64,000 bases of DNA from Desulfovibrio legallii. Its GTDB lineage: Bacteria; Desulfobacterota; Desulfovibrionia; Desulfovibrionales; Desulfovibrionaceae. The notes beneath the pieces were generated by a model that made no database searches, was not told where the DNA came from, and saw only the letters and a list, made by a program, of their open reading frames with translations. The first letter of the stretch is position 1, and each line of letters starts with the position of its first letter. Both the position numbers and the translations under genes were made by a program. Below are positions 3,382 through 30,126 of the stretch, piece by piece. The stretch lies in assembly GCF_004309735.1 (NCBI RefSeq), contig NZ_SIXC01000009.1:15683-79682 (forward strand), read 5' to 3'.

Positions 3382-3389
3382 GACCACGG

Positions 3390-3543
3390 TTACGGTAGCC
3401 GGGTTTTGCCCGGCTTGAAAAGGGAATCCCGTGCAAAACGGGAGCGGACCCGCCGCCGTAAGGCCCGTATACCGCGCTTCTTCATGTGCCACTGGCAACG
3501 GGAAGGCCGAAGCGCGGGGGCCAAGCCGGAAGACCTGCCGTAG
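3390..3543 (+). promoter_or_regulatory. Cobalamin riboswitch (upstream of btuCDF-cbiL)
   Basis: The region carries the conserved cobalamin aptamer blocks in order: GGGAATCCCGTG, GAGCGGACCCGCCGCCGTAA, the B12-box core GCCACTGG, GGGAAGGCCG, and AAGCCGGAAGACCTGCC. A P1 helix can form between TACGG (3391-3395) and CCGTA (3538-3542). It lies between a promoter and a terminator and precedes corrinoid transport genes, the standard context for B12 repression. Confidence 0.95.
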
Positions 3544-3630
3544 CCCGGACCGTGCCGTACGTCACGGCCCGGTGGGCGGCGCAGGCCGCCGCGGCAACGG
3601 GTTTTTGCCGGCAGGAAAGAGGAAATACGG

Positions 3631-7799: not shown

Positions 7800-10700
7800 T
7801 TACGTCAACCTGCCAACACCCTTAAACTTTTCAACAAAATCGACGATTTTTTGAAAAACTCCCTGCTTTTTTTTCAGGTACTGCGGGTTTAGCGGGCTCA
7901 TCCGTGGCAGAACGTCATTGAGTTCCGTACCGTTTTCACTGGCGAATTCCCGCTTCAGTGAGGCGCTGAGATAGCGCCTGGCTTCCTCCGCATTCAGATT
8001 TTCGCTACGGATAAGTTCTTGCGCCTCACGTTGCTGTTCCGCCCTGGCAAAGGTGAAGAAAGCCTCTATCACGCCGGCCTTGTCGCCAAGCTGGTCCAGG
8101 TCTGTCTGATTAATAAAATCGACCAGCAAGCTCTCCTTGGCGCGGTTGCCGAGGCTGGCGCGGATCAGGCGGCGCACGTCTTCCACCAGTGCGGTTTTGT
8201 CCTTAGTTTTTTTGTTGTTCTCAAAGATCAATTCAAGAATGTAGTCCAGATTGATTTCCTGCGATTTCAGCAAGTCCACTTCAAAGACCACGTCATCCCA
8301 GTCAATGGCCGATTTTTCTTTAGCAGCATCCGTTTGTTGCCGACGCTGCCATTCTCTGATGTCATTGTACGCCGAACGATAGTCCTGCAATTTACGTTCA
8401 GGCACCACTTTGACGGCCCGTAAGGCGTGCAACTGCGCATCACTTAAATAGTACTTTGCTTTAAATGCCTCCACAGCCGCCGCATTGTTCATATCAACGT
8501 ATTGCAGGGCCTGCAGAACGGCAAATTCATCGTAGTTTTGCAGGATGTTTTCAACCCGCAGATACTCGCCGAACAGTTTGACAAAAGCCTTTTTGTCTGC
8601 CTCTTTTTCAATGGCGTCGGGGTGGGGAAAGTGCTGCTCCAATTCCCGCACCACAGCCACAAAACCACGTCGCGCCTCACCAGTGAGCGCATCGGTAAAG
8701 CCCTCCATATATTCCTTGTAGCTTTTTTCCAGCACCACATTTCTGGTGTTGCTGTCGCCGAACAGGGTGATGGCGTCAATGGTGGCCTGCTCCAGATTGC
8801 GGAAGGTGACGATATTGCCAAAGGTTTTGGTGGCGTCAAAAATGCGGTTGGTGCGCGAATAGGCTTGCAGCAGGCCGTGGTATCGCAGATTTTTGTCGAC
8901 AAACAAAGTATTCAGCGTGGGGGCGTCAAAGCCGGTCAGAAACATGCCCACAACAATCAGCAAATCTACTTCCTGATTCTTCACCCGCAAGGCAAGGTCG
9001 CGGTAGTAGTTTTGGAAGGCATTGCTCTCCACACTGAAACTCGTTTTGAACAGCGCGTTATAGTCCGCAATGGCCGCACTCAAAAATTCTTTGGCGCTAC
9101 TGTTCATGGCTGTAACGTCAAAACTTTCATCCGCAATATCACCAATGGCGTCCTGCGCTCCATTGGCTGCGAACGAAAAGATAGTGACCACCTTGAGCGG
9201 CTTGTCGCTGTCTTTTTGCAAAACTTTGAAGGAGTTATAATACAGCTTGGCGGCGTCCACGCTGCTTACGGCAAACAGGGCGTTAAAGCCCTTGGCGCCC
9301 GGCTGCAGCCGCCGGGTCTTTTGCCGGAAATTGTTCAGAATGTACTGGGTAATTTCACAAATGCGCTCGGGGTGCAGCAGGGCCTGCGCGGTTTCCGCCG
9401 CGCCAAGTTTTTTTTCATCCTGTTCGCATTCAATATTCTTGAAGCGCGGGCGCACATCGTTGTAGTCCACCTTGAACTTCAACACCTTTTCATCACGAAT
9501 AGCGTCGGTGATGACATAAGAATGCAGCTCATGGCCAAAGACGCTGGCGGTGGTTGCCGCGCCCAAAGCATTTTGCGGGAAAATCGGCGTACCCGTAAAG
9601 CCAAACTGCATATAAAGTTTAAATTTCTTTTTCAGGTTCTTTTGCGCTTCACCAAACTGACTGCGGTGGCATTCGTCAAAAATGAACACCACCCGCTTGT
9701 TATAGACCGGCAGGTCCGCTTCGCATTTCATCAGTTTGTTCAGCTTTTGGATGGTGGTGACGATAATTTTATTGTCGTCTTTATCCAAATTGCGCTTGAG
9801 TCCGGCGGTGCTTTCCGAACCATTGACGCTGTCTGGCGAAAAGCGCTGGTATTCCCGCATGGTCTGATAATCAAGGTCCTTGCGGTCCACCACAAAAAAA
9901 ACCTTGTCGATGAAGTCCAGCTCGGTCGCCAGGCGGGCCGCCTTGAAGCTGGTCAGGGTTTTGCCCGAGCCCGTGGTGTGCCAAATATAGCCGCCCCCCT
10001 CGGGTTTACGCCACTGCTTCATCTGGCAGGTGCTGTTGATTTTCCACAAAATGCGTTCTGTGGCCGCGATTTGGTAGGGGCGCATAACCAGCAGGGTGTT
10101 GTTCACGTCAAACACGGAATAGCGCAGCAGCACGCTGAGCAAGGTATTTTTTTGGAAAAAAGTGGCGGTAAAGTCCTTCAGGTCTTTGATCAGACTGTTG
10201 TCGGCCTTTGCCCAGTTCATGGTAAAGTCAAAGCTGTTTTTGTCGCGCCTGGTGGTATTGGCGAAGTAGCGGGTATCCGTGCCGTTGGAGATGACAAAGA
10301 TCTGCAGATATTTGAACAGGGAATGCTCGCTGTTGAAGCTCTCCTTGCTGTAACGATGCACCTGATTGAAGGCCTCGCGGATGGCCACGCCGCGTTTTTT
10401 GAGCTCTACCTGCACCAGGGGCAGGCCGTTGACCAGGATGGTCACGTCATAACGGTTGGCGTGCGACCCGGTTTGTTCAAACTGGTTGATGACCTGTACC
10501 GAGTTGCGGGCAACGTTCTTTTTGTCAAAGAGGCAGATATTCTGGATGTGGCCGTCGTCAAAAACAAAGTCATAGATGTAATCGTCATGAACCTTGCGGG
10601 CTTTGTCCACAAGACCGTCGCCGGGCTTGTCCAGCCAGGTTTCCACAAAGCGTTCCCACTCGCCATCCGAAAATTGCACGGTGTTCAAGATTTGCAGCTG

Positions 10701-10898
10701 CGTGCGCACGTTGGCCAGCAGTTTTTCCGGCGAGTTGAAGCCCGCAGCGTACTCGTAGCCCTGATTTTGCAGATCCTGAACAAGCTCCCGCTCCAGGTCG
10801 CTTTCAGTCTGGTAGCTTTCAACAGCCTGCCAGTCGCTTACGTACGTATCGAGAACGATGAAGTTGTTGGATTCGGCTATGGCCTTGAAGTCGTGCAT
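7800..10898 (-). CDS. hsdR: Type I restriction enzyme endonuclease/translocase subunit HsdR
   Basis: The 1032-residue motor subunit cleaves DNA remote from the recognition site. An N-terminal PD-(D/E)xK nuclease region is visible as D151 in [11 protein letters not shown] with E165-x-K167 in [10 protein letters not shown] superfamily 2 helicase follows: Walker A TTGSGKT (about 308-314), DECH (408-411), FTGTPIF and a later helicase lobe with a [16 protein letters not shown] segment. The C-terminal helical region would bind the HsdM/HsdS core. It is the last gene of the operon, 35 bp after hsdS. No internal stop or frameshift was seen, so the enzyme looks intact. Confidence 0.95.
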
Positions 10899-10933
10899 TG
10901 CAACCTCGTGGAGATTTGGCCTTTCGAGATGTG

Positions 10934-12139
10934 TTATCCTGCTGCCTTTTTTGACTTGGGAAAATTGAACAGCATGTCACGATAATATGCGTACTGCTTT
11001 TGGCGCAGCTCGATTTCGCGCGGCAGCCCTTCGCTGATGGAGTTGGTGAGGGCGTCGAATTTGTCCAGAATGGCGACGATACGGGCTTGATCGGGGAGTG
11101 ATGGGAATGGCAAACGCATATTTTCAAAGGTTCCCATGTTGATATTGTCTTGCGCACTGCCAGTACTTTGTGATTGCAACTTATGTTTGAAAGAAGACAA
11201 AATATATTCAACATAACTCGAACTGGTTTGCTTCGTATCAGCAATAAATCCTATAACGCTGTCTGGAAAACACGCATCAAAACCAAGAATAGCAGTTTCT
11301 GCAATGTTTGCGGCTATTGTTATGCAAAGCGTACCTGTTGGCCATAATTTGCTTTGCTCCAATCCAAAATTGCTATATGTTTGTGTATACTTTGTAATAA
11401 TATGCGGAGCATTTTTGATATCACCTGTTTGAATAAAAGGGATATTTCCACCATATAGTTTAGGATCGTTTCGTGGACGATGTCTTGATTTCCCACGCCC
11501 AAACTCAAGAGCCACCTCCCCCAACGTCTTCCACTCCACTTCTCCTTTTTCAAAACGCAGCAACCGGTCGCGGTAGTAGTTGTACTGCTTTTGGCGGGCG
11601 GCCAGCTCGGCGGTCAACTTGGCGGTCAACTCGGCAAAGGTGTCCAGAATACGAACTAGTTCAGACTGGATCGCAAGTGATTTTTGGGGGTTGTCTGGGC
11701 AGGGGATGGGAATTTTTTTATTGGAAAAACTGCCTATCCATTGCCGTTTGTGGTCTTTGTCAAGTAATTCGCAGGGGATTGTATTGAGCCAATAGTAGAC
11801 ATATTTAAGCAAAACTTTGCTGTCATCCTTTGATGTAATCATCTTCATGGCAGAAGATTTTGCTTTGAAGTCAAAGTCAACCCATTTGTTCGCAGTCGTA
11901 AAATCATCAAATATTATTACTGGTCTTTCAGATGCTTTATAGATGCCACTTTTTTCATCAGTGTAGCCGAGAATAAACGTCTTCCCTGCGGTAAGCACTG
12001 GAGTTTTAAAATTATCATGATAAATTTTTGAATTTACTAGGTACTTAGTCGGTTGCTCATATTGCGTAACTTCCCCCAGCGGCTTCCACTCCACCTCTGC
12101 TCCATCCAGCAGATTTTCTAAAAAATTCGCACCAACCAT
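10934..12139 (-). CDS. hsdS: Type I restriction-modification specificity subunit HsdS
   Basis: HsdS sets the target sequence for methylation and cleavage. The 401-residue protein has the usual two-half layout: a variable target-recognition domain (about 15-150), a central conserved helix with [20 protein letters not shown], a second variable domain (about 210-340), and a C-terminal copy of the helix with [17 protein letters not shown]. The two helices act as the spacer that fixes the gap in the bipartite target. ATG 12139 ([13 protein letters not shown]) was chosen; a further upstream start would run into fic. Only one base separates the fic stop from this ATG. The variable domains have lower GC than the window, as is usual for exchanged recognition domains. 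Confidence 0.93.
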
Positions 12140-12140
12140 A

Positions 12141-12746
12141 CTACAGTTCCTCGATCTTGAAGGTGCTATAGCCTTCATAGTGATAGCTCACGTCAATCCC
12201 CTTCATGAACAAGGCGCGGTCATCAATCTGGTCGGTGAGGGCATGTTTCAATAGGTGCTTAATTTCAATGTCTTTCACCACGCTGCGCTGCATGGCGGAC
12301 AGGTATTCTTCTTTATCGACCCGATTCCAATCCACCACCTGTTTGATTTCTTTTTTAAGCATCAGGTCAAGCCAGATCCGGGTGGCGCGGCCATTACCTT
12401 CGCGAAATGGATGGGCAATATTCATCTCAACATATTTTTCGATAATTTCGTCAAAATTACTGTGCGGCATGTTGTCGATATGCTGTAGCGCGGCATCCAG
12501 ATATATCAGCGGCGCAAAACGGAAATTACCTTTGGCGATATTCACCTTACGAACTTTGCCCGCGAACGCATAGATATCCTTAAACAGCCGGACATGAATA
12601 AAGGCAAGTCCTGCAAACGTACCAACTTCAATGGCATCAATCTCGCCAGAGTCGAACAGTTTTCTGGCGTTCTGCTTGCTTATTCTTTCTTCAGCTTTTG
12701 CCAGTTCAACCTGATTGGTAATGCCGAGCCTGTTTTCCAGAATCAT
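12141..12746 (-). CDS. Fic-domain protein inside the restriction operon
   Basis: Fic proteins transfer AMP or other nucleotide moieties to target proteins. The complete active motif HPFREGNGRATR (112-123) contains the catalytic His, the anion-binding GNG and the distal Arg. The 201-residue protein has only the Fic core plus short flanks. I found no [ST]xxxE[GN] inhibitory helix at either end and no small antitoxin gene beside it. It starts 3 bp after hsdM and ends 1 bp before hsdS, so it is cotranslated with both. Fic genes between hsdM and hsdS are known from other genomes, but their role in the complex is unsettled. The target is unknown. Confidence 0.9.
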   Translation of the reverse strand: MILENRLGITNQVELAKAEERISKQNARKLFDSGEIDAIEVGTFAGLAFIHVRLFKDIYAFAGKVRKVNIAKGNFRFAPLIYLDAALQHIDNMPHSNFDEIIEKYVEMNIAHPFREGNGRATRIWLDLMLKKEIKQVVDWNRVDKEEYLSAMQRSVVKDIEIKHLLKHALTDQIDDRALFMKGIDVSYHYEGYSTFKIEEL

Positions 12747-18145: not shown

Positions 18146-18538
18146 ATGAACCCAGCGGAGCGCAAGCCAACCACCGGGAACCTCTTTACACATGTGTATG
18201 AGCAGCCTCGCCCGCAACGGGTGGGGGTATTCAGGGCAAGTCTTCTTTTGTGGGCTTGTTTTTTTTGTACCTGTAGTCTGTTCCTCCCCACACAAGCCCT
18301 GGCCGACAACGAGCGCTACAAGGCCATTCCCCTGGCTGCCGGTGGCTATGTCTTTATTCTGGATACGCAGGAAGGACACGCCTGGACCTGGAGCAACGCC
18401 GGTCCGGGGCAGGCTTCGCCTTCCGGCAGCAATCCGCGCATCGTCTATCAAGGCAATGTACGTCGCAATATGACGCCCCCCAAGGGCGCTCCCAATGTGC
18501 CGGCCCCCACGCCGACACAGCAGCAGGAACGTTTCTGA
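18146..18538 (+). CDS. Small secreted protein, first gene of the envelope locus
   Basis: A 130-residue protein with a longish n-region, a hydrophobic core (ASLLLWACFFCTCSLFLP) and a cleavage site near QALAD. The mature part is about 75 residues: an aromatic, mixed-charge segment (YKAIPLAAGGYVFILD) followed by a Pro/Gln-rich tail. SD GGAG lies 8 bp before the ATG. It follows an AT-rich promoter region and opens the run of eleven co-oriented genes to 29412. No family is recognised. Confidence 0.7.
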   Translation: MNPAERKPTTGNLFTHVYEQPRPQRVGVFRASLLLWACFFCTCSLFLPTQALADNERYKAIPLAAGGYVFILDTQEGHAWTWSNAGPGQASPSGSNPRIVYQGNVRRNMTPPKGAPNVPAPTPTQQQERF

Positions 18539-18646
18539 GGCCACGGTGGGGCTGCGGCGCCGCGCCTCCCCAACGCGCCGCACCCCGCCAACCTTATACA
18601 ACCGCACACGACAAAGGCCTGTGTCTGTGACAACCGGAGGTTCTTT

Positions 18647-18958
18647 ATGAAGCGCATACTTGTTCTGTTTGTGGCGGCCATACTCTACACCACCCCTGCC
18701 TTTGCCGCCGGCGCCGCGCACAACGCCACTCAAGGAGGCGGCAGCAAGGGGGGCGAACAAAGCAAAGTTGTCAATGTGACCACGGTTAAAAATGCCGCCG
18801 TTATTGCCAGCGGCAAAAACTCCGAGGCCAATATCGGCAACGTCACCAACGAAGGTGGCAAACAAAGCGACGTGGTCAATGTGACCACCCTCAAAAATGC
18901 CGCCGTCATTGCCAACGACGGCGGCAAAACAAACATTGGCAACGTTACGAACAAGTAG
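18647..18958 (+). CDS. Secreted protein with two curlin-like repeats
   Basis: The 103-residue protein has a clean signal peptide (MKRILVLFVAAILYTTPAFA). The mature part is rich in Gly, Asn, Val and Thr and carries two copies of a roughly 30-residue unit: VVNVTTVKNAAVIASG then ANIGNVTNE, and VVNVTTLKNAAVIAND then TNIGNVTNK. Alternating small/beta-branched residues with regularly placed Asn are typical of curlin- and Fap-type amyloid repeats, but the consensus Gln positions of CsgA are absent. A perfect 13-bp hairpin follows the stop. An amyloid or fibre role is inferred from composition and from the nearby CsgG-like lipoprotein. Confidence 0.72.
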   Translation: MKRILVLFVAAILYTTPAFAAGAAHNATQGGGSKGGEQSKVVNVTTVKNAAVIASGKNSEANIGNVTNEGGKQSDVVNVTTLKNAAVIANDGGKTNIGNVTNK

Positions 18959-18965
18959 CTGCAAC

Positions 18966-19003
18966 GGATTCCATCAGCTGCACATATTGCGCTGATGGAA
19001 TCC
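18966..19003 (+). promoter_or_regulatory. Intercistronic 13-bp perfect hairpin
   Basis: GGATTCCATCAGC (18966-18978) and GCTGATGGAATCC (18991-19003) are perfectly complementary around a 12-nt loop. There is no T run; the next SD (AGGAGG) follows 8 bp later. It could protect the 3' end of the upstream repeat-protein message or limit read-through. Confidence 0.6.
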
Positions 19004-19019
19004 ATTACAGGAGGCCGCG

Positions 19020-19367
19020 ATGCGCACTACGAATAACGTATTATTTACAATAATATTTATTTACATATTTTCAACAGCCTGTGCAACAGAATCGTTGTCT
19101 TCTGAAATAGTTGTATCTGGAAAAGATGTAAAAATAAAAACAGACGATGGTGAAGTAATAGACACATCAAAATTGCCTGAATCCTCTGATATAGAAATAG
19201 ATAATAATACTGTTTCCATTGGCGATGTAAAAAATAATGGCAAAGATAATAAAAATATAAATAAAAAAACAAGTATTGAAAATGTAATTATAGTCAAAGA
19301 TGGAAAAACCACCTCCATAAAAAAGCTCGAAACTGGAAACATGCGTCACGGCACGGAGAAAAAATGA
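19020..19367 (+). CDS. Small low-GC exported protein
   Basis: The 115-residue product begins with a signal-like segment (VLFTIIFIYIFSTACA). The mature part is hydrophilic, rich in Lys, Asp, Asn and Ile, with beta-strand-like runs (EIVVSGKDVKIKTDDGEVID and SIENVIIVKDGKTTSIKKLE). The gene is strikingly AT-rich compared with its neighbours. SD AGGAGG precedes the ATG; its end overlaps the next start by 4 bp (ATGA). No homology is recognised. Position suggests a partner of the adjacent secreted proteins. Confidence 0.68.
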   Translation: MRTTNNVLFTIIFIYIFSTACATESLSSEIVVSGKDVKIKTDDGEVIDTSKLPESSDIEIDNNTVSIGDVKNNGKDNKNINKKTSIENVIIVKDGKTTSIKKLETGNMRHGTEKK

Positions 19368-19714
19368 AATATATCACTATATTATTATTTGTCGTGGTGC
19401 AAACGGTCTTTCCCCTTGCCGCCAACGCGGAAGAAGACATCTTCGCGGACTACAATAAAGATATGAGCAAGCCTGCGGATGCCAATGTGGTTGGCGTGTA
19501 CGACGCCTGGGGGAACAACATGGCCCACCGCATCAAGAACGGCTACAGCGAAGGCGTGGTCATTGACGGCGCAGGCGATTACGCCGATGGCAAGGTCCAT
19601 GTCGACGGGATGGGAAATGTAGTCATTGACAAGAATGCCAACGTAGGCCCTGTTATAAACCAGACCGATCTGAATAATTCAACAGTAATAATACAACAAA
19701 AAAAGCGGTTCTGA
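19364..19714 (+). CDS. Small secreted protein with repetitive Gly/Asn/Val C-terminus
   Basis: A 116-residue protein with signal peptide ending AANAEED. The mature part has VVGVYDAWGNNMAHRIKNG, then GVVIDGAGDYADGKVHVDGM and VVIDKNANVGPVINQTDLNN, a series of short beta-strand-like units separated by Gly, Asn or Asp. The last residues (STVIIQQKKRF) are basic. This pattern resembles minor subunits or nucleators of fibre systems, but no family is certain. It overlaps the preceding gene by 4 bp and ends 1 bp before the CsgG-like lipoprotein gene, so it is translationally linked to both. Confidence 0.68.
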   Translation: MKYITILLFVVVQTVFPLAANAEEDIFADYNKDMSKPADANVVGVYDAWGNNMAHRIKNGYSEGVVIDGAGDYADGKVHVDGMGNVVIDKNANVGPVINQTDLNNSTVIIQQKKRF

Positions 19715-19715
19715 A

Positions 19716-21020
19716 ATGCCTGTGAAACATGTTCTGCATCGACTTTTTTTGGCAGTGCTCTGCACTGCGGCCGCCTGCGTTTTGCCAGGCTGCAAAGCCG
19801 CCGTCCCCAACCTGCCCCCCATGCAGGCCAACGCTCCGGTGCATACCAGCTATTCGGGCGCGCTGGCCGACCTCAATACAGTGCTGGAAGTCTACCTTCC
19901 GCCGGACTACCCGGATACCTTTTTCTTTGTGAAGCCCATCGTAGACGCCACAGGCCTTTCACAGACCGGAGAAATCCCGCTGGACATTACGGCGCTGGTT
20001 CGCGACGCCGTGGCCCAAGTTTATTACAAGGTGCGCTATGTGGAGCAATACGATCAGACAGATATTGTGCAGATTCAGGCAGAGCTGCTCAAGTTGCAGA
20101 CCAGCAAGCTGCAGGGCCTGGCCGTCAAGCCGGCCCAGCGCCCGGCCGTGGATTTTACCATTGCCGGCCGTATTTCTCAGTTTGACCGCAACCTGGAGTC
20201 GCAGTCCGACAAGGCCCGGGCCATGGCCAATTTTGGCGAAGGCCTTTCCCGTACGGATATAAACGCTTCGGCCGAAGCCTCCTCCCGCCTTTCCCGCCTG
20301 AGCGTTTCCTTCAGCGTTTTCAACCCCAACGGTATTGCCCTGCCGGGAAAGTTCGGCGCCAGTATGGAAGTCCGGTACGCCAAAAACGGCATGGACTTCG
20401 GCTTTGCCATCTTCGGCAACGGGCTGGGCTTCGGCTCCGAAGCCACGGCCATGCACGGCCGTCACCTCGCCCTGCAGATGATGACGGAATTCAGCGTGGT
20501 GCAGATTATCGGCAGAGCCCTGAACGTCCCTTACTGGCGCGTGGGCGCGACGCAAAACATCTTTACGCCAGACAGACTTGTAACCTCTGAATGGCAACGA
20601 CAGTACGCCAGCATGGGGCCTTTGCTCATCCCCTTCATGCAGTCGCAGTGCATTGCCTGCGGGGACAGCTCCGTCATGGTAACCGGACAGATGGACGCCC
20701 AGACCCAGGCCGCTCTGGACCGCTTTGCCGACAAATTCGGCGTTAAAAACCGCAGTTATCCCAACTATGAAATGTTTAAGGCCTTGGAAATGCACCGGCT
20801 TCTTGACCGCGGCGCGGCCTCTGCCGCCTGGGCGGCCTACGGCGCGTACAAGGGCGGCTCCCGCCCTGTGGCCATGCCGCAAGCGGCCAGGCCCGCTGCT
20901 CCGCCCGCTGCTCCGCGTCCGGAACCCCGCAGCGCGCCGTCCTCCCCCGCAAATGGCGGCCCAGCCGCCACGCCCACCGCACAGCCAGACGTCGCCAAGC
21001 CGCTGGAAGGCTTGCTGTAA
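19716..21020 (+). CDS. Outer-membrane lipoprotein with CsgG/HfaB-like features
   Basis: The 434-residue protein has a lipobox LPGC (Cys26). Residues about 40-270 are laid out like CsgG-family pores: an opening strand with FFFVKPIVDATGLSQTGEIP, a helix leading to YYKVRYVEQYD, DFTIAGRISQFDRNL, a strand run (SVSFSVFNPNGIALPG) and the terminal helical segment QMMTEFSVVQIIGRALNVPY. Around residue 330, VTGQMDAQTQAALDRFADK resembles a peptidoglycan-binding helix. A Pro/Ala-rich tail closes it. The CsgG relation is a judgement by pattern, not a database match. It sits between small secreted proteins and the vWA protein, as an exporter or anchor would. Confidence 0.6.
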   Translation: MPVKHVLHRLFLAVLCTAAACVLPGCKAAVPNLPPMQANAPVHTSYSGALADLNTVLEVYLPPDYPDTFFFVKPIVDATGLSQTGEIPLDITALVRDAVAQVYYKVRYVEQYDQTDIVQIQAELLKLQTSKLQGLAVKPAQRPAVDFTIAGRISQFDRNLESQSDKARAMANFGEGLSRTDINASAEASSRLSRLSVSFSVFNPNGIALPGKFGASMEVRYAKNGMDFGFAIFGNGLGFGSEATAMHGRHLALQMMTEFSVVQIIGRALNVPYWRVGATQNIFTPDRLVTSEWQRQYASMGPLLIPFMQSQCIACGDSSVMVTGQMDAQTQAALDRFADKFGVKNRSYPNYEMFKALEMHRLLDRGAASAAWAAYGAYKGGSRPVAMPQAARPAAPPAAPRPEPRSAPSSPANGGPAATPTAQPDVAKPLEGLL

Positions 21021-21037
21021 GGCAGGGAGGATAAGAT

Positions 21038-23218
21038 ATGTCCATACTTCCATGCATGTTGCCGTTGCGCCCTATCCTGGTCATGCTCCTGACCATATGC
21101 TGCAGCATGGGCGTGGGGAGCCTGTGCCGCGCCGCCGATGCCAACGACGCGGCCGACATCCGCACGCCACTGCTGCAAGAGGGCAAGCGCACCCTCTACC
21201 AACGGGTGATCAGCCATCCGGGGGCCAGGCTGGCCGACGCGCCCGCCGGAGCTGGGGCCGAGCCCCTGCGCGGCTTTACGCCCCTGTACGTTTACGGACG
21301 CCAGAATGTCCAGGGCGCGGACTGGCTGGAAGTTTCGCCGAGCGTAAAGGCCACGCGGACCCGCTGGATCAGATCCGACGCCTGCTCGCCCTGGGACAAG
21401 GCTCTGACGCTGCTGTTCGCGGACCGCATGAGCCGGGATCCCGTTCTGTTTTTCCGCAATTTTGACGCCCTGAACGCCCTGGTGCGCGCCACGGACATGC
21501 GCGCCGCGCTGGACGGCCTGCTCCGCGCGCCGACTTCACCGCAAAGCCCCTTGCTGGCCGTTGAGCCCAGGGAGGCCTCCGTCCCGCGCAAGCAGTTCTA
21601 CCTGATACCCATCTTTGACTATTCCGACGAATATGAACAGCACAACCTGCGCCTGCTCAAAATCGGCGTGGTGGACCCCGGCGTTCTGCCCACCGCCGCA
21701 CCCCACCCCGCCCCCGCGCCCGTCACCGCTTTAGCGCCTGTACCCGCACCCGCGCCTGTACCCGCACCCGCGCCTGTACCCGCACCCCAGGCCGCCGCCC
21801 CGGAACCGCACTTTTCCGCCGGCATAGCCTTTATTGTGGATACGACCATCTCCATGGGGCCCTATATCGAACAGACCAAAAATTTCATTCACAGCACCTA
21901 CAACGCCCTGGAAAAAAGCTCCATCGCCGAAGATGTGGCGCTTGCCGTGGTGGCCTACCGTAACAGCACCAAGCATAACGCCAAACTGGAATACGTGTCT
22001 TCCGTGGTTGCCCCTTTTACCCGTGCAGGCTCCCGCGCGCAGGCCGAACCGCGCGTGCAGGGCATGGACGAGGCCGCGGTTTCCACCCACGCCTTCAATG
22101 AAGACGCCTTTGCGGGCATCAAGGCGGCCATAGACGGGCTGGACTGGTCGCCCTACGCCGTGAAACTGGCGGTAATGGTCACGGATGCGGGCGCTATCCG
22201 CAATGACGACCCCCTCTCCAGCACGGGCCTTACCGAAAAGGAAATGGGCGACCTGCTGGCGCAAAAGGGTATCCGCCTGGTGGTCGTCCACCTGCATACC
22301 AAGGCGGGCCAGCGGCACAACCTGGCGGGCACGGTGCAGCAGTACCGGCAACTGACCGCCGTGCGGGACGGCAACGTCAAAAGCGCCTATGTGGCCCTTC
22401 CCGTCAGCGACCCCCAGACCGCCAGTCGACAGTTCAGCCGCATCGCCGCCAAACTCGTCGACGTGCTGCAGCAACTGGTGGTCAAGGCCGCTCAGGGTGC
22501 GCCCATTGCCAAGCCTTCTTCGCCGCCCCCCGCCGCCCTGCCCGCTGCTGCGGCGGCGTCCCCAGCCGCCGTACCGGCCGCCGCAGTTGCGCCCGCCGCT
22601 CCCCAGGCTGTGGCCGCCGCGCCCGATCCGGAAGCCCTGGCCGCCTATATCGGCCAGGCCCTGGGCTACGCCGCCTATCTGGAGTTCGCCGGCGAGCGAC
22701 AAAAAGCCACCGCCCCGCGCCTGATGGAGGCCTGGGTAGCGGACAAAGACCTGGGCAGTCTGGTGGAAGGCAAATCTACCGACGCGCTCATGGCCGCCGT
22801 CCTGCTCAACAAAAACCAGCTCAATACCCTGGCCCGGCAGATCGGGTTGCTTATCGATGCCGCCCGCGCCTCGCGCATGACAGACAGCAGAGACCTTTTC
22901 CAGCGCGTCATTTCGCTTTCGTCGCAGACCCTGCGCGACCCGGAACGCCTGCAGCGCGCCGCAGACGACAACCTCTGCGCCCAGGGGTTGCTGCCGGAAT
23001 TTCTGACCGGACTGCCGTACAAAAGCCAGGTAATGAATCTGACTGAAGAACGCTGGCTGGCCATGAGCGCGCGTGAGCAGGACGAACTGATCTACTCGCT
23101 GGAGGCCAAGCTGCGCCTCTATGCGGAATACCACAACGACGCCGACAACTGGGTAACCTTTGGGTCCGCCGACCCCGCCGAGGCCCTGTACCGCGTGCCG
23201 CTGACCTCGTTACCCTAA
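21038..23218 (+). CDS. Periplasmic vWA-domain protein resembling the PpkA ectodomain
   Basis: The 726-residue exported protein has a signal peptide (about 1-32), an SH3-like region (about 45-120), a KQFYLIPIFDY segment, a Pro/Ala linker made of tandem 18-bp repeats, and a vWA domain from about residue 262 with MIDAS-type DTTISMG and the following GPYIEQT. A second Ala/Pro linker leads to a helical C-terminal domain (about 540-726). The DTTxSMGPYI pattern and preceding segments recall the periplasmic part of the type VI secretion kinase PpkA, but no kinase or transmembrane segment is present. It lies 17 bp after the CsgG-like gene and 15 bp before the ABC fusion. Function as a signal receiver or adhesin is inferred. 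Confidence 0.75.
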   Translation: MSILPCMLPLRPILVMLLTICCSMGVGSLCRAADANDAADIRTPLLQEGKRTLYQRVISHPGARLADAPAGAGAEPLRGFTPLYVYGRQNVQGADWLEVSPSVKATRTRWIRSDACSPWDKALTLLFADRMSRDPVLFFRNFDALNALVRATDMRAALDGLLRAPTSPQSPLLAVEPREASVPRKQFYLIPIFDYSDEYEQHNLRLLKIGVVDPGVLPTAAPHPAPAPVTALAPVPAPAPVPAPAPVPAPQAAAPEPHFSAGIAFIVDTTISMGPYIEQTKNFIHSTYNALEKSSIAEDVALAVVAYRNSTKHNAKLEYVSSVVAPFTRAGSRAQAEPRVQGMDEAAVSTHAFNEDAFAGIKAAIDGLDWSPYAVKLAVMVTDAGAIRNDDPLSSTGLTEKEMGDLLAQKGIRLVVVHLHTKAGQRHNLAGTVQQYRQLTAVRDGNVKSAYVALPVSDPQTASRQFSRIAAKLVDVLQQLVVKAAQGAPIAKPSSPPPAALPAAAAASPAAVPAAAVAPAAPQAVAAAPDPEALAAYIGQALGYAAYLEFAGERQKATAPRLMEAWVADKDLGSLVEGKSTDALMAAVLLNKNQLNTLARQIGLLIDAARASRMTDSRDLFQRVISLSSQTLRDPERLQRAADDNLCAQGLLPEFLTGLPYKSQVMNLTEERWLAMSAREQDELIYSLEAKLRLYAEYHNDADNWVTFGSADPAEALYRVPLTSLP
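21734..21787 (+). repeat. Three exact tandem 18-bp repeats in the vWA gene
   Basis: GCGCCTGTACCCGCACCC is repeated three times without mismatch, coding for APVPAP units in the linker before the vWA domain. Change in copy number would keep the frame and alter linker length. Confidence 0.9.
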
Positions 23219-23233
23219 AAATTGGGCTTTCGC

Positions 23234-25297
23234 ATGACGCCGCCGCTGCTGGAAATCCGCAATCTCTACAAGTGCCATACGGCCCGGCGGCCGGCCTTTT
23301 GCGCCGGCATCACACGCCTGGACATGGCCCCCGGCGAGGCTGCGGGCATAACCGGGCCCAGCGGCTGTGGCAAAAGCACCCTGCTGGAAATGCTGGCCCT
23401 GCTGACGCGCCCCTCCACCACCGAGCGCTTTGTGCTGCGCGCCGAAGACCGCGCCTGCGATCTGGCCGCCCTCTGGGCGCACAGCCCGCAACAGCTCTAC
23501 GCCCTCCGCCGCGCTTATCTGGGTTTTGTGCACCAGGCCGGCGGCCTGTACCCCTTTTTGACCGTGCAGGACAATATCGGCCTGCCGCTGCGCCTCACAG
23601 GGCAGACCTCTCAGGCGGAAACAGCCCGCCGCGTGGACGCCCTGCTGGAATTCCTCGGCCTGCGTCATGTGGCCCGAAGCCTGCCCGAAACCCTTTCGTA
23701 CGGAGAACGCCAGCGCACCGCCGTGGCCAGGGCCCTGGCCCACCGGCCACGGCTGATCCTGGCCGACGAACCCACCTCGGCTCTGGACCCAGAAGCCGCG
23801 CGGACAACCATGTCCCTGCTGCGGCAAGGCGCGCGCATGTCCGGGGCGGCCTTGCTGGTAGTCAGCCACGACCACGCCCTGCTCGCCGCCACGGGCATCC
23901 CCGCGTGCGCCATGCGGCAACAGCCCGCTGCCGCGCCCAAGGCTGTATCCGCCGCCGAATCCGAAAAAATCCACTACAGCCTTGACCTGCCGCCGCGGAA
24001 GGAAAATGCCGCAGCCCCGCAGGGCGCAGGCCCGCCCGCCGCAGCGGCGCAATCCGCCCCCCCGCCGCAGCGGCGCGTACCCCCACGCAAAGGGGCCGCC
24101 CTGCTCTGCGCCCTGGCCTGGCGAGACTTTCGCCACGAGCGTTCGCTCTCCATCTGCGCGGTACTGGCCTTTGCCGCCGCGCTCACGCCGCTGATCATCC
24201 TGAGCGGCCTGCGTACGGGAATCGTGGGCACCCTCTCGCAACGCTTGCTGGACAACCCCGCGGCCCTGGCCGTCAACCCCTACAGCAGCCAACGTTATAT
24301 GGAAGAAGACCTGGCCGCCTTGGCCGCCTTGCCCTCCGTGGCCTTTGTTGTGCCCCTCACCCGCACCCTGGCAAGCAGCGTGTTGATCGATCGCCCAGGG
24401 CACTCTCCGCTGGCGGCGGACGTCCTCCCCACCGCCAGGGGAGACCCCTTGCTGGAACGCTACGCCTCAACGCCGCCGGCGGACGGCGCGGTCATAACCA
24501 CAGAGCTGGCGCGCTCTTTGCCGGGCGTGACGCCGGGCCGCCGTCTGAACCTCCGCATCACCCGCCGCCAGGAAGGCCGCCTGCAGAGCGTGACGCTCCC
24601 GGTGCGCGTCCACGCCGTCCTGCCCGATGCCGCGGACTGGAAAAACCGCGTCTACCTGCCCTTGCCCCTGCTGCTGGATATGGAGCGCTACAGGGACGGC
24701 TTTGCCGTGCCCGCGCACGGCTGGCCGGGAAAAGCGCCCACGTCCGCCGCCCGCAGCTTTGCCGGTTTTCGCATGTACGTGGACAGCCTTGAGGCCGTCA
24801 TTCCCATACGCGACGCCCTCAAACGCCGGGGTATAGACGCCTATACCTGCGCCCGCGAAGTGGAGGCCATTCTGGATCTCAAGCAGGCGCTGACCCTCAC
24901 CGCCCTGCTTGTAGGCGGCGTTACGCTGGCAGGCATGGCCTTTTCTCTGGCCAGTCTCGCTGTGGCCAATGTGCGCCGCAAGGCCCTTTTTTTTGCCCAG
25001 GGCGCGCTTATGGGGCTCAGCCGCCGTGAGCTGCTGGCCCTGCCCTTGCTGCAGATGACCTTTACCGCGCTGCTGGCGGCTTCCTGCTCTCTGCTTTTCT
25101 ACGCGGCCGCCGCCGCGCTTCTGGATCTGGCCGCCGCCCCCTGGCTGGAATCCGGAGAAAGCGCCTGTGCCCTGCCTGGGGCGCAGGTGTTGCCGCTCTA
25201 CGCCGGTTCCCTTCTCCTGGCCTGCCTCTGCGGCGGAGTTGCCTGCCGCCAATTGCTCACGCTGCAGCCTGCGGAGGTCTTGCGCCGTGACGCCTGA
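23234..25297 (+). CDS. ABC ATPase fused to FtsX/LolC-type permease (TagT-TagS-like)
   Basis: The 687-residue fusion has an ATPase (about 1-225) of the LolD/MacB class: Walker A GPSGCGKS (41-48), signature SYGERQR, Walker B LILADEPTSALD. A Pro/Ala linker leads to a permease with a first span near 300 (SICAVLAFAAALTPLIILSG), a periplasmic domain of about 200 residues, and three C-terminal spans. This is the MacB-type topology, but the ATPase lies at the N-terminus of a four-span permease as if tagT and tagS were joined. ATG 23234 was chosen over a TTG 12 bp upstream. Neighbouring vWA and FGE-fold proteins point to a TagTS-like mechanotransmission role rather than drug export. Confidence 0.82.
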   Translation: MTPPLLEIRNLYKCHTARRPAFCAGITRLDMAPGEAAGITGPSGCGKSTLLEMLALLTRPSTTERFVLRAEDRACDLAALWAHSPQQLYALRRAYLGFVHQAGGLYPFLTVQDNIGLPLRLTGQTSQAETARRVDALLEFLGLRHVARSLPETLSYGERQRTAVARALAHRPRLILADEPTSALDPEAARTTMSLLRQGARMSGAALLVVSHDHALLAATGIPACAMRQQPAAAPKAVSAAESEKIHYSLDLPPRKENAAAPQGAGPPAAAAQSAPPPQRRVPPRKGAALLCALAWRDFRHERSLSICAVLAFAAALTPLIILSGLRTGIVGTLSQRLLDNPAALAVNPYSSQRYMEEDLAALAALPSVAFVVPLTRTLASSVLIDRPGHSPLAADVLPTARGDPLLERYASTPPADGAVITTELARSLPGVTPGRRLNLRITRRQEGRLQSVTLPVRVHAVLPDAADWKNRVYLPLPLLLDMERYRDGFAVPAHGWPGKAPTSAARSFAGFRMYVDSLEAVIPIRDALKRRGIDAYTCAREVEAILDLKQALTLTALLVGGVTLAGMAFSLASLAVANVRRKALFFAQGALMGLSRRELLALPLLQMTFTALLAASCSLLFYAAAAALLDLAAAPWLESGESACALPGAQVLPLYAGSLLLACLCGGVACRQLLTLQPAEVLRRDA

Positions 25298-27041
25298 TGC
25301 CGCCCGTTCCGCCCCCCTGGCCGTTCTGCTGGCTGCCCTGGGCCTGCTTCTTGCCCTGCCCCGGACGGGCCTGACCCTGCAGCTGACCGGTAAAAGCGAT
25401 TTGCCCAGCCTGGAACGGATTTCCAACCCCAGGCCGGCGCCCGGCGACATCGCGTTGCCCATGCCCGGTGGGCTGACCATGACGCTGCGCCCTGTATGCG
25501 TGCCCGCAGCTGGTTATCTGGATGACGTGCAACAGCCTTTTGGCATCACGGCGCAGACCGACGCGCCCGCAACGCCCGACGCGGCCTGGGCAGAACGGCG
25601 CTACACGGCCTCCGTCAACGCGCCCTTTGAGCTGGCCGACATCCCCGCCAGCTGGGGTAATACGCTGTCGGAATGGCTCCAGGCGGACCCGGCCAGCGCC
25701 GCTTCGGCCCAAAACGGCCTGCGGGCCTTCCTGTATTTTATTGGCAAATATGAGGTCACCAGGGGGCAGTGGCGGGCCGTTATGGAACAGGACGCGCCCT
25801 TTGCCGTCCAGGCGGGCGACGACAGGCCCGTAACGGATATTTCCTGGTTTGAGGCCCAGGATTTTTCCCGGCGCTACTCCGAATGGCTTATGAAAAACCA
25901 TCCGGAATTTCTGCCTTTTTTTGCGCAGGAAAAGCGCTCTTCCTACGTGCGCCTCCCCACGGAGGCGGAATGGGAATACGCCGCCCGGGGCGGGCACCGG
26001 GTCAGCCCGGCGGAGCGGGAACGCACCCGGCTGTACCCCGTGCCCCAAGGCACCGCCATGGGCGAATACATTATTGCCGCCCAGTACGACCCTACCCTTA
26101 CGGGCCTTGCCCCCATTGGCTCACGCAAGCCCAACCCTCTGGTACTTTACGATATGCTGGGGAACAGCGCAGAAATGGTCCAAACCCCCTTTCATCTGGT
26201 GGCGGCAGGCCGCCTGATGGGCAACCAGGGAGGCTTTGTGATCAAGGGGGGCAGTTGGCGGGCCTTTTCTGAAAACAGCCTGCACCCGGGCCGGCGGATT
26301 GAAGCCAGCTATTACATAGACGGCCGGGCCCAGCGCCGGGACGACCTGGGCTTTCGCATCAGTCTGGGCACCATACTTACCCCCAGGGACAGGCTGGCGG
26401 CTCTGCGCGCGGAATGGGAAAAACGCCGCGCCCCGCACGCCGCGCAGGCCACCCAGCGCCAGGACGTCCGGGTAATCATCCGCGAAGTCTATCGCGAGGT
26501 AGAAAACCCGGCACTGCGACGCCGCCTGGCGGAAGCGGAACAAGTCGCCGCGCTGTACCACGAGCAAGTTAATGCCAATGAAGAACGCATGATGCACGAA
26601 ATGTTGCTGGGCGCAACCTTTTCTCTGGAAACCATCGCCAATTACGCCGCGCGCTGCTACCAGCTCATCAAGCTGATGGACGCCTATGAATCCTTGTCGC
26701 CGCACAAAAAACAGGCCCAGGCAGCGGAGATGAACAATATGCGCCAACAGGTTACAGGCTTTGTCTTCGGCATCCAGGGGGCGCTTTTTTACTACAAAAA
26801 CATGCTTGCCGCATCTGGGGGCATGAACCTGCCGCGCCTGCTGCAACAGCTTGAAGCCCTGCGCATCCAATTCGCCCATGAGGACGGCTTCAGCAAAAAC
26901 ATGGGACGACGGCTCACCGTCTTGCAAAAACATATCCATGCCGGTCAGGACGACAGCCTGCAACGTTCCGACCGGCAAACCCTGCAGGACATCCTTCCCG
27001 CCTGGCTGCTGGACCGCTTGCTGCCCTATCTCAACACTTAG
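25287..27041 (+). CDS. FGE/SUMF1-fold protein lacking catalytic cysteines (TagR-like)
   Basis: The 584-residue protein has an N-terminal signal anchor (APLAVLLAALGLLLALP) and an FGE-sulfatase fold (about 130-370): YEVTRGQWRAVM, PVTDISWFEAQDFSRRYSEW, VRLPTEAEWEYAARGG, YDMLGNSAEMVQ, VIKGGSWRAF and DDLGFRIS. The usual GNVWEWC position has no Cys, so formylglycine-generating chemistry is unlikely. A long helical domain (about 400-584) follows. GTG 25287, inside the end of the ABC gene and preceded by GGAGGT, is the only good start; the overlap is 11 bp. In Pseudomonas, TagR is such a protein and works with the TagST transporter. The analogy is inference. Confidence 0.8.
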   Translation: MTPDAARSAPLAVLLAALGLLLALPRTGLTLQLTGKSDLPSLERISNPRPAPGDIALPMPGGLTMTLRPVCVPAAGYLDDVQQPFGITAQTDAPATPDAAWAERRYTASVNAPFELADIPASWGNTLSEWLQADPASAASAQNGLRAFLYFIGKYEVTRGQWRAVMEQDAPFAVQAGDDRPVTDISWFEAQDFSRRYSEWLMKNHPEFLPFFAQEKRSSYVRLPTEAEWEYAARGGHRVSPAERERTRLYPVPQGTAMGEYIIAAQYDPTLTGLAPIGSRKPNPLVLYDMLGNSAEMVQTPFHLVAAGRLMGNQGGFVIKGGSWRAFSENSLHPGRRIEASYYIDGRAQRRDDLGFRISLGTILTPRDRLAALRAEWEKRRAPHAAQATQRQDVRVIIREVYREVENPALRRRLAEAEQVAALYHEQVNANEERMMHEMLLGATFSLETIANYAARCYQLIKLMDAYESLSPHKKQAQAAEMNNMRQQVTGFVFGIQGALFYYKNMLAASGGMNLPRLLQQLEALRIQFAHEDGFSKNMGRRLTVLQKHIHAGQDDSLQRSDRQTLQDILPAWLLDRLLPYLNT

Positions 27042-27050
27042 GAGATTGTT

Positions 27051-28127
27051 ATGTCTGCCCTGCGCCTCCCTCTGACCCTTGCGCTGCTGTGCCTTTTCAT
27101 CCCAATCGTCGGCTGCGCGCCGCACACCGCCATGCCGAAGATAAACGCCGAGTACTACCCGCAGTGCTATGCGCCTTTCAAACAGCTGCACGACGCCGAA
27201 GTCTCGCTGCGCAACCGCACCGTGGGCTATACCGCGGGCGGCGCCATAGCCGGCGCGGCCGGGGGCGCGCTTCTGGGCTTTCTACTCTCCGGCGGCAAGT
27301 GGGAATACGCCCTGGCCGGCGGGGTGGCCGGCGGGCTTTCGGGCGCGGCCACCGGGTACACCATGGCGAAACTTCAGGGCATCAAGGACGACCAGAAGCG
27401 CTTGCTGGCCTATAAACGCAGCATGGATATAGATATGGCCAACGCCACGGAAGTGGAACTGGCCGCTCTGCAAAGCCTTAAATGCTATATCCAGGAATTT
27501 GAACAACTGCAGAAAGGTTTGGCGGAACAGACCGTAACCCGCGAGGAATACGCCAAACGCTATGCGGAAATCCGCACCGGCATTACAGAGCTGGGCAAAA
27601 TTACCGGCGATTCGCAACTGCTGCTTGCCCAGCGCGACGCCGAATTCCGCACGGCGCTCCAAGCTGAAGCCACCCAGCAAAACACGTCCTTAAAACCGCT
27701 CCCCACGGTGGATGAACGCCGCGCCCAACACCTGAAGCAACAAAAAAAGACCGCCGCAAAGGTGCGCAAACACCCCAAACAAAAACGCGGCAAGTCTGCC
27801 GCCCAGCCCGAAGCCAGCGCCTCGCTAGCCATCGCCGACCTCAAAAACGAAATCCAGGCGCTGGAAGAACAGGCCCAAAACGACCGGCAACGGTACCAGC
27901 CGCAAAAAGAAACGCCGACCCAGCCCGCCGCCACGGCCGTTGAGCCGACGCCCGCAACGCCCAAGGCCACACCGGCAGTGCTGCCGGTGTCCGTGGACCA
28001 GGTTGCGGAAACGTACGATGCATATCCCACCAAGGTTCTGCAGATGGAAGCCGTGGAGCGCCAACGCCAGCGCACGCTGGAAATCATGAGCGACGCCGCC
28101 GCAAAAACCGGCATAGATATGGTTTAG
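27051..28127 (+). CDS. Glycine-zipper lipoprotein (TagQ-like position)
   Basis: The 358-residue protein has lipobox IVGC (Cys22). A glycine-zipper hairpin (about 58-105, GGAIAGAAGGALLGFLLSGG and LAGGVAGGLSGAATG) could insert into or pack on the outer membrane. A charged helical region (about 110-220), a Lys-rich segment with KKTAAKVRKHPKQKRGK, and a Pro/Thr linker follow. SD AGGAGA stands 5-6 bp before the ATG, 10 bp after the TagR-like gene. In TagQRST loci the lipoprotein TagQ holds TagR at the outer membrane; the same arrangement is suggested here from position only. Confidence 0.72.
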   Translation: MSALRLPLTLALLCLFIPIVGCAPHTAMPKINAEYYPQCYAPFKQLHDAEVSLRNRTVGYTAGGAIAGAAGGALLGFLLSGGKWEYALAGGVAGGLSGAATGYTMAKLQGIKDDQKRLLAYKRSMDIDMANATEVELAALQSLKCYIQEFEQLQKGLAEQTVTREEYAKRYAEIRTGITELGKITGDSQLLLAQRDAEFRTALQAEATQQNTSLKPLPTVDERRAQHLKQQKKTAAKVRKHPKQKRGKSAAQPEASASLAIADLKNEIQALEEQAQNDRQRYQPQKETPTQPAATAVEPTPATPKATPAVLPVSVDQVAETYDAYPTKVLQMEAVERQRQRTLEIMSDAAAKTGIDMV

Positions 28128-28202
28128 CCCTCAAACGGACGGCGCGCGCCCAGGCTGGCCTGCGCGCCGTCCCCAACCCCTATCTTGCTGTGGAGACAAA
28201 CC

Positions 28203-28757
28203 ATGCGTTTCACACAACTCCTGCTTGGCATCATGACTGCACTGCTTGTGGCTGGCTGCATGGCAAAAACAACAGTACTGCTGGACAAAAATGCAAAAGA
28301 AAAAGTAGTGGCCCCTGCGTCATTTTATCTTTCTGTGGTGGGCAAAACGCTTTACGAGGACGCGGATTCCAAAGAAAAAATTGCAGTGGGGGAAATCTTT
28401 CAGGAAGAAGCGTCAAAAAAGCTAAAAGAGATAGGCGCCTTGGCGGAAGACGGCGATGGAAAGAACCACTATGTGATCTTGGTAAACATCCTTGGGTATG
28501 AGCCGGGGAATGCCGCCGGCAGATATTTTCTCGGACAGCTTACAAACTCGTTCGATGCGGCAATAGTAATAAACGCGCAATTATGCGCGGCCGTGAAAGA
28601 GGATGGCGGCGTAAAAGCCGGAGAAATTATTGCGCTGATTCCCACAGGTAAAGCGCTACATAAGGGGCTGTTTGGCGGAATCGGCGGATGGAAAACAATT
28701 ATCGTCGACGCTGCAAGAGACCTCATCACCACAGTAGAAAAAACTTTTTTGGATTAA
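28203..28757 (+). CDS. Lipoprotein of unknown function
   Basis: The 184-residue protein has lipobox VAGC (Cys19). The mature domain alternates strands and helices (KVVAPASFYLSVVGKTLY, YVILVNILGYEPG, AAIVINAQLCAAVKE) with a Gly-rich C-terminal part (KGLFGGIGGWKTIIVD), a pattern seen in small outer-membrane lipoproteins of the DUF4410/LPP20 kind. No firm family assignment. GGAG lies 10 bp before the start. It is separated by 75 bp from the glycine-zipper lipoprotein, the longest gap in the second half of the locus, so an internal promoter is possible. Confidence 0.68.
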   Translation: MRFTQLLLGIMTALLVAGCMAKTTVLLDKNAKEKVVAPASFYLSVVGKTLYEDADSKEKIAVGEIFQEEASKKLKEIGALAEDGDGKNHYVILVNILGYEPGNAAGRYFLGQLTNSFDAAIVINAQLCAAVKEDGGVKAGEIIALIPTGKALHKGLFGGIGGWKTIIVDAARDLITTVEKTFLD

Positions 28758-28770
28758 TTGAGGAGAAGAC

Positions 28771-29412
28771 ATGAAAACAGCCATAGCCGCATTTATTATA
28801 CTTATTGTTTCAGGATGTACTATTGGACCTTCAAAAATAGCTAAAACAATAGAACATGAATCTCGGGAAAGTATCAGCCAGTTTGCACAACCAGGAAAAA
28901 CCTCGAATATAGCCATACTAGAAAAATTCAAAAAACCCACAGCGAAATTAGTGCGTGACGATTCAAAATATACATATATGTATGCATATTGGGACAGAAA
29001 AACAAAAAGTTATGGATTTTTTTCCGGGGTTGCAGAGGTGCAAGTCGAGCAAAAAACAGCGAGCTTTGTTTTTAACAGCGATGGAATTTTAGAAAAATTC
29101 GAATTCAACGATGATTTTCCTTTTAAAACACAGATGAATAGAACTGGGAGCAATACACTAACATCAGAAAAAATAGTATATGAGTACTCAAAATTAAAAT
29201 ACGGCGAATCGCTGGATGAAGTATTAAAAAAACTTGGCGCTGCTACCGTTCATACAACACAAGGGGATAAACAAAATATTTCATATACAAGTTTTCCATT
29301 TCTCAGCGGTATTTGCCTTGAGTTTCAGGACAAAAAACTTTCCAGCAAATACTATTACACCACCGTGGAATTGAATGCAGAAGAAAAATCCATTTTGAAA
29401 AACGCCCCATAA
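28771..29412 (+). CDS. Low-GC lipoprotein, last gene of the envelope locus
   Basis: The 213-residue protein has lipobox VSGC (Cys16). The mature part contains TYMYAYWDRKTKSYGFFSG and ASFVFNSDGILEKFEF, resembling SmpA/OmlA (BamE-like) strands, and a second copy-like segment SKLKYGESLDEVLKKLGA, a BamE-type helix. A BamE-like fold is therefore possible but unproven. The gene is AT-rich like 19020-19367 and unlike the rest of the locus. SD GGAG precedes the ATG; 13 bp separate it from the previous stop. A repeat and a 700-bp non-coding stretch follow. Confidence 0.68.
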   Translation: MKTAIAAFIILIVSGCTIGPSKIAKTIEHESRESISQFAQPGKTSNIAILEKFKKPTAKLVRDDSKYTYMYAYWDRKTKSYGFFSGVAEVQVEQKTASFVFNSDGILEKFEFNDDFPFKTQMNRTGSNTLTSEKIVYEYSKLKYGESLDEVLKKLGAATVHTTQGDKQNISYTSFPFLSGICLEFQDKKLSSKYYYTTVELNAEEKSILKNAP

Positions 29413-29461
29413 CGCGGATTGCCTTTGAGAATATGCATTTTCAAAATTTAGGGCACCTTGC

Positions 29462-29537
29462 TTCCGGCGCTTACCCGCGCAAATAAATTTTGCTTGCGCC
29501 TCCACGGTGGACGTCTGCTTACACAACCGCCAGGGCA
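29462..29537 (+). repeat. R2 repeat, copy A
   Basis: TTCCGGCGCTTACCCG, GCAAATAA, GCGCCTCCACGGTGGACG, TCTGCTTACACAACCGCC and AGGGCAT. It matches the reverse complement of 7612-7686 at most positions and shares its right half with 49524-49566. The 713-bp gap from 29413 to rpoB holds this element, a long inverted repeat and a terminator but no supported ORF. Confidence 0.7.
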
Positions 29538-29618
29538 TGGCAACGTTGAAAAGCCTTAATCGCGGCAAGGGCTGCCGTTGGGCCACGCCAATCCCGGAGG
29601 CGGGGTCGTCCCCGTCAT

Positions 29619-29673
29619 GCGCTGCCCTTTGCGCCCAGGCCGGTTATGTCGGCCTGGGCGCAAAGGGCAGCGC
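29619..29673. repeat. Perfect 24-bp inverted repeat upstream of rpoB
   Basis: Arms 29619-29642 and 29650-29673 are exact reverse complements, GC-rich, with the 7-nt loop GTTATGT. No T run follows, so it is not a simple terminator. A 14-bp direct repeat, GACGCGGGCTGCAC, follows at 29709 and 29767. Confidence 0.9.
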
Positions 29674-29946
29674 AGCAGCCGACACCTGGCGACCGTCCTC
29701 AGCCTTACGACGCGGGCTGCACCTTTTGGCGGCACCCGCGGCACAGCCTATGGCCCATCATTTTTCGACGCGGGCTGCACAGCGGTTTGCGGCGGCACGC
29801 CCCGCCCCACAAAAAATATTTGCAAAAAAGACTTGCCAAGCGTAAATTTTCCGATTATGTATTCCCTTTCAATGACGATGCGGGAGGCTTCGTTTCTGAT
29901 TTTTTACAACACACTGCATCGGATTACACTTTAAGGCGAACGCCCC

Positions 29947-29985
29947 AACCCAAGCCCTGTTGCGCAGACAGGGATGGGTTTTTTT
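29947..29985 (+). terminator. Intrinsic terminator upstream of rpoB
   Basis: Nested stem AACCCA/TGGGTT and CCCTGT/ACAGGG around TGCGCAG, followed by TTTTTTT overlapping the stem end. It would end transcripts entering from the left, so rpoB needs a promoter within the 140 bp after it, or read-through past this site. Confidence 0.8.
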
Positions 29986-30126
29986 CGCCCTGCCGGTGCA
30001 AACTTTACTTCCACACCGTGCCCTTACGCTTTCAGGGTGTCGTAACCGCACGTTTTTTTTGCCCACCGGCGCGCCATGAGCGCAGATGCGCAGCCGGGGC
30101 GAACCGCCTACCTACTTGAGGTACCC

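Follow-up and report, generated by a model that had tools for sequence, protein, structure and literature searches.

The stretch of DNA analysed here (the window, 64,000 nucleotides of a Desulfovibrio legallii contig) holds at 18146-29412 an envelope locus of eleven open reading frames, all on the + strand and in the order described by an initial annotation made from the sequence alone. The products are secreted or lipidated envelope proteins plus a single ABC ATPase-permease fusion. The carrier is a gut Desulfovibrio-type bacterium whose genome (G000; 2.68 Mb in 35 contigs, rated 100% complete) has the locus on contig C9. The genes, g1 to g11, are:

18146..18538, + strand: g1, small secreted protein, 130 amino acids as listed
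18647..18958, + strand: g2, secreted protein with two repeats of ~35 residues, candidate fibre subunit
19020..19367, + strand: g3, small secreted protein with a possible lipobox, GC content 0.30
19364..19714, + strand: g4, small secreted protein, duplicated in genomes G087 and G510
19716..21020, + strand: g5, CsgG-fold outer-membrane lipoprotein with a peptidoglycan-binding-like tail, predicted secretion pore
21038..23218, + strand: g6, periplasmic vWA protein with an intact metal-ion-dependent adhesion site (MIDAS), DTTIS
23234..25297, + strand: g7, ABC ATPase fused to an FtsX/MacB-type permease (TagT+TagS-like)
25287..27041, + strand: g8, periplasmic FGE-fold protein without the catalytic Cys (TagR-like), with a C-terminal extension
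27051..28127, + strand: g9, TagQ-like lipoprotein with a glycine zipper
28203..28757, + strand: g10, lipoprotein with weak DUF4410 similarity if read from 28185
28771..29412, + strand: g11, lipoprotein without a family match, GC content 0.35

The description of the locus as eleven co-oriented, tightly spaced envelope genes was borne out. In the first half, g3 and g4 overlap by 4 bp, and the following genes are separated by 1 bp (g4-g5), 17 bp (g5-g6) and 3-15 bp (g6-g7); in the second half, g7 and g8 overlap by 11 bp, and 9 and 13 bp separate g8-g9 and g10-g11. Looser gaps occur only at g1-g2 (108 bp), g2-g3 (61 bp) and g9-g10 (57-75 bp). Putative start codons were re-read from the sequence as ATG 23234 for g7, GTG 25287 for g8 and ATG 28203 for g10, the g8 start being most likely GTG 25287 rather than 25167.

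Could these genes be a chance neighbourhood of unrelated envelope genes? Their mosaic GC content (0.30 in g3, 0.35 in g11, 0.69 in g7) would be compatible with such an origin, but conserved synteny refutes it. The order g1-g8, followed by TagQ-like and g11-like genes, recurs in other genomes at 88% down to ~50% protein identity, and a complete or contig-truncated gene set was found in five further genomes; among the carriers are Desulfovibrio sp. ZJ369 and assemblies of Desulfovibrionaceae, including one from goat rumen. Because the order is kept in genomes whose proteins are only ~50-70% identical and in which the locus occupies different places on the chromosome, the locus is not a chance array.

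The g5 sequence itself has no Pfam match. When its profile was searched against the PDB, CsgG chains ranked first (E 0.006), and among 50 homologues Pfam detected CsgG in 10 and PG_binding_1 in 25. We modelled g5 with AlphaFold2 (AF2) from a 50-row alignment (predicted local distance difference test score, pLDDT, 81; predicted TM-score, pTM, 0.71) and obtained four long strands, the number that two membrane hairpins would need. In a Foldseek search with the model, the best 25 PDB matches were all CsgG chains (E 7e-12 to 5e-7, probability 1.00, TM-score by target up to 0.70). On these results we count the fold as tested; g5 has both the CsgG fold and a lipobox, in line with the CsgG-like lipoprotein first proposed for the 19716 product.

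The small proteins upstream recur together with such pores. The two ~35-residue repeats of g2 belong to a widespread family of 36-residue repeats, and homologues with many repeats precede CsgG-like genes in Desulfobacterota, Nitrospirota, one Methylococcales assembly and a Scalindua. Since g2-family genes recur in this position, ~1-2 kb upstream of the CsgG-like gene in Desulfobacterota, Nitrospirota and other groups, pore and repeat protein form a conserved pair. Another short secreted protein usually sits between the two genes, and g1-like short secreted proteins accompany CsgG-like genes elsewhere, a link that beyond the family was made by eye. In its AF2 model, g2 appears as a two-coil beta-solenoid-like protein with four strands per coil (pLDDT ~82-89 over residues 41-103). 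That g1-g4 build a fibre is a fair inference.

The genes g6-g9 resemble the TagQRST/PpkA set linked to type VI secretion, in which a vWA protein, the ABC proteins TagT and TagS, the FGE-fold TagR and the lipoprotein TagQ are found; all these components were present when the locus was compared with that set. g6 has an intact MIDAS and a signal peptide; because no transmembrane segment follows, it lacks a cytoplasmic part of its own. g7 matches ABC_tran (E 4e-25) with traces of FtsX and MacB_PCD, and it retains intact ATPase motifs and four to five hydrophobic segments. g8 matches FGE-sulfatase (E 7e-28) and contains just two Cys, neither within the FGE active-site motif, in agreement with the initial view of an FGE-fold protein lacking the catalytic Cys. 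g9 matches the TagQ model NF041250 (E 1.8e-25), its 89.9 bits lying below the equivalog cut-off of 300. g6-g8 keep the order seen on Tistrella mobilis plasmid pTM1, whose type VI cluster has genes for a vWA protein, an ABC protein, an FtsX permease and a SUMF1-type protein directly after those for PP2C and kinase. Identity to the Tistrella proteins is 30.7% over 84% of g6, 33% for the permease and 31% for the FGE-fold protein. Thus, the TagQ, TagR and TagS-type identities and the placing of g6 among vWA proteins that adjoin the kinase of a type VI cluster, both proposed at the outset, are supported. The vWA family profile gave no match in the PDB. We also checked vWA matches from Azospirillum and Hyphomicrobiales for a PpkA fusion; in neither is the vWA gene joined to a kinase, and the Hyphomicrobiales gene lies beside srf genes.

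In Pseudomonas aeruginosa, TssK assembly needs TagQ and TagR, with contributions from TagS and TagT (PMC6657622), and the vWA domain of PpkA is extracytoplasmic (PMC3224232). Could the locus then be the accessory of a type VI system lost by this lineage? TssC was found in all four other close carriers of our first family sample, as this explanation would have it. The wider counts argue otherwise. g5 is carried by 4 of the 79 genomes of the genus and TssC by 30, and TssC occurs in 2/4 locus carriers versus 28/75 others (Fisher P = 0.63), so that locus and type VI secretion are not associated in the genus. The closest relative (G493, g5 88% identical) likewise lacks TssC. Where a carrier has both, the locus and the type VI genes sit on separate contigs, and the type VI stretches that we read held no relatives of g6-g9. 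These results disfavour an origin as a type VI accessory, which we regard as very unlikely, and type VI ownership of the locus was rejected on the genus-wide counts. The initial annotation had reported that kinase, Fha and type VI structural genes are missing from the window; for TssC, TssK, Pkinase (PF00069) and FHA (PF00498) the same is true of the whole G000 genome (PP2C was not searched for), and the known threonine-phosphorylation route is therefore closed there. The locus thus stands alone in G000, with no owning type VI cluster found elsewhere in the genome. g5 falls inside the CsgG fold, g6 groups with vWA proteins encoded beside the kinase of a type VI cluster and no type VI cluster was found to own these genes, the points on which the proposal had been staked in advance.

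The initial annotation missed a second homologous set in the same genome, on contig C3 (L038, L170), in the order TagQ-trypsin-like-SrfA-SrfB-SrfC-vWA-ABC-permease-FGE, the TagQ-like gene lying upstream of the srf genes. Because of this set, the 18146-29412 locus is not the only place with a TagQRST-like module but no type VI genes, and tagQRST/ppkA-like genes near srfABC without type VI genes were reported in 2013 from host-associated Deltaproteobacteria (PMC3608642). Relatives of the srf-type vWA protein are present in the other genus members checked. The arrangement of srfABC with TagQ, vWA, ABC and FGE genes also occurs on Klebsiella plasmids (for example L172, NZ_CP102995.1 93366-121101), and the vWA gene of that set is matched by 114 Klebsiella plasmid records. 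BLAST aligned g9 with the Klebsiella glycine-zipper protein over 15 residues only, both proteins matching the TagQ profile, and tblastn of g9 against plasmids gave no match. A small tree of vWA proteins places the locus type in a clade of its own, with the srf type of Desulfovibrionaceae as sister group (union support 1.0). A third arrangement (L125-L133) joins vWA, ABC, long permease, FGE and glycine-zipper lipoprotein genes to a second lipoprotein with the motif 'DPxxGGLFxYSP'; it occurs in genomes both with and without TssC, and the Azospirillum vWA gene mentioned above has a similar arrangement.

Given the second set, the sister relationship of the two vWA clades and the occurrence of cassette and module each without the other, g6-g9 might be a stand-alone sensor whose output lies elsewhere (e.g., srfABC) and which merely shares an operon with the fibre cassette. 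However, the srf locus has a complete set of its own and would not need a second copy, only 17 bp separate g5 from g6, and other genomes show the same junction. A separate sensor is further opposed by Desulfobulbaceae-type loci (below), in which the same cassette is coupled to an unrelated set of vWA, ABC and kinase genes, and we consider it rather unlikely. Export in the manner of MacB seems improbable, more so than a separate sensor: here g7 would push Sec-exported periplasmic cargo through a CsgG-like pore that replaces TolC, with the vWA and FGE proteins as adaptor. The MacB_PCD and FtsX similarity of g7, its intact ATPase motifs and the co-encoding of a CsgG-type pore with secreted proteins all fit this scheme; against it, the type VI and srf sets have no CsgG-like relative alongside, so that export would not be the general role of the module, and cassettes without a g7-type ABC protein exist.

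In eleven other loci (L065, L074, L076, L089, L091, L092, L093, L096, L105, L109, L111), mostly annotated Desulfobulbaceae (Desulfobulbus and other assemblies), the CsgG-like gene of the same cassette is followed by genes for a secreted vWA-type protein and for a single protein that combines FHA domains, an ABC ATPase and an ABC2 membrane domain. Within the sequence available, a Ser/Thr kinase gene is present in 10, a small lipoprotein gene in 8 and a PP2C gene in 6, several contigs ending early. Pfam searches with members of L074, L089, L096 and L109 confirmed the domains, the vWA part being VWA_2. BLAST of the L074 vWA protein against g6 detected no similarity, and the FHA-ABC2 transporter of these loci is of another class than g7. 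In our reading, one fibre cassette has recruited vWA-plus-ABC control twice and separately; conceivably, the vWA parts share a very distant ancestor.

What could such a composite locus do? In bacteria with type VI secretion, the counterpart of the g6-g9 half detects events at the envelope and activates a kinase in the cytoplasm. We propose, with a probability of about 0.55, that the CsgG pore/fibre-like cassette and the TagQRST-like module form one trans-envelope unit for sensor-controlled fibre secretion. The output half would be the g5 pore, which, anchored to peptidoglycan, would release g1-g4, chiefly the beta-solenoid-like g2, for assembly into a surface fibre or coat. The control half would comprise the outer-membrane lipoprotein g9, the inactive FGE-fold g8, the vWA protein g6 and the ABC ATPase-permease g7. 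Because the genome has no kinase of the type VI kind, the signal would most likely pass directly between ABC transporter and pore complex via the vWA and FGE proteins and would thereby gate or power secretion. Linkage, recurrence and the case of convergence make a single machine with direct ABC-vWA-FGE control of the CsgG pore likely. A stricter form, a kinase-free CsgG pore gated or powered by the ABC ATPase through a vWA/FGE bridge and representing one of at least two independent recruitments, is a tentative suggestion. There is good support for the gene identities and for the stand-alone status, while we infer that g1-g4 are cargo and form a fibre, that the two halves are in contact and that ATP hydrolysis gates the pore.

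Several observations weigh against a single sensor-controlled unit. The small proteins had been called curlin-like; this was not upheld, as g1-g4 had no Pfam curlin match at E up to 1. Foldseek of the g2 model against the PDB returned no significant match, the non-significant hits including beta-helices, HET-s amyloid and the CsgA fibril (E 5-8). One relative (G086, 96% complete) keeps g1, g2, g4 and g5 and has no g6 relative in its whole genome. The CsgG/repeat cassette was found alone in several phyla, and the distant cassettes had no g6-g8 relatives apart from generic ABC matches; secretion by the cassette therefore does not require a module of the g6-g8 type. Operon membership is no proof of contact, and the secretion of curli through CsgG is not known to require an ATPase. 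Of the stand-alone trans-envelope machine for a surface fibre that was first envisaged, the stand-alone character, the CsgG fold and the Tag-type identities were retained, and g1-g4 stay candidate fibre proteins.

The setting of rpoB differs between genomes. In the window (at 29413-30118), rpoB comes after the locus, whereas it follows nusG and ribosomal-protein genes in G493, G087, G126 and G137 and unrelated genes in G040; an insertion, a rearrangement beside rpoB or a misjoin are possible. Upstream, at 7800-12746, lie Type I restriction HsdR and HsdS genes and a Fic-domain gene, and two cobalamin riboswitches are located at 3376-3556 and 62148-62327.

The pairing of TagQRST-like genes with a CsgG/repeat-protein cassette appears to be new; in the part of the literature covered, we found no paper that joins CsgG with vWA/ABC parts. 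Secretion through CsgG-type pores is generally regarded as needing no energy source and as controlled mainly at transcription. If our proposal of one unit is true, this locus and the unrelated pairing with kinase, phosphatase and FHA genes would mean that secretion of a surface fibre can be switched at the protein level on cell-envelope events; the TagQRST/vWA module would be an envelope device of general use, serving type VI secretion, SrfBC and a fibre pore, and its signal could be studied in systems without an attached weapon.

How does the locus compare with known systems? As in curli (CsgG, CsgA), a pore of the CsgG fold is encoded beside small secreted repeat proteins, but these have ~35-residue repeats and no Pfam curlin match, and the pore has a peptidoglycan-binding-like tail and an attached envelope ABC/vWA module. 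The locus may also be likened to the holdfast anchor HfaABD. With TagQRST-PpkA (P. aeruginosa H1, and the version with split kinase and vWA genes in Tistrella pTM1), it shares the order of homologous vWA, permease and FGE-fold genes and a TagQ-like lipoprotein; in contrast, its genome lacks kinase, FHA and type VI markers, the TagQ score is under the equivalog cut-off, ATPase and permease are fused, and the partner is a CsgG/repeat cassette. Another comparable system is the srfABC neighbourhood of host-associated Deltaproteobacteria and Klebsiella plasmids, which likewise has no type VI genes beside its TagQ-like, vWA, ABC, permease and FGE genes. There, the partners are SrfB/SrfC and a trypsin-like protein, and ATPase and permease are separate genes, whereas in the locus the two are fused and the partners are a CsgG pore and repeat proteins.

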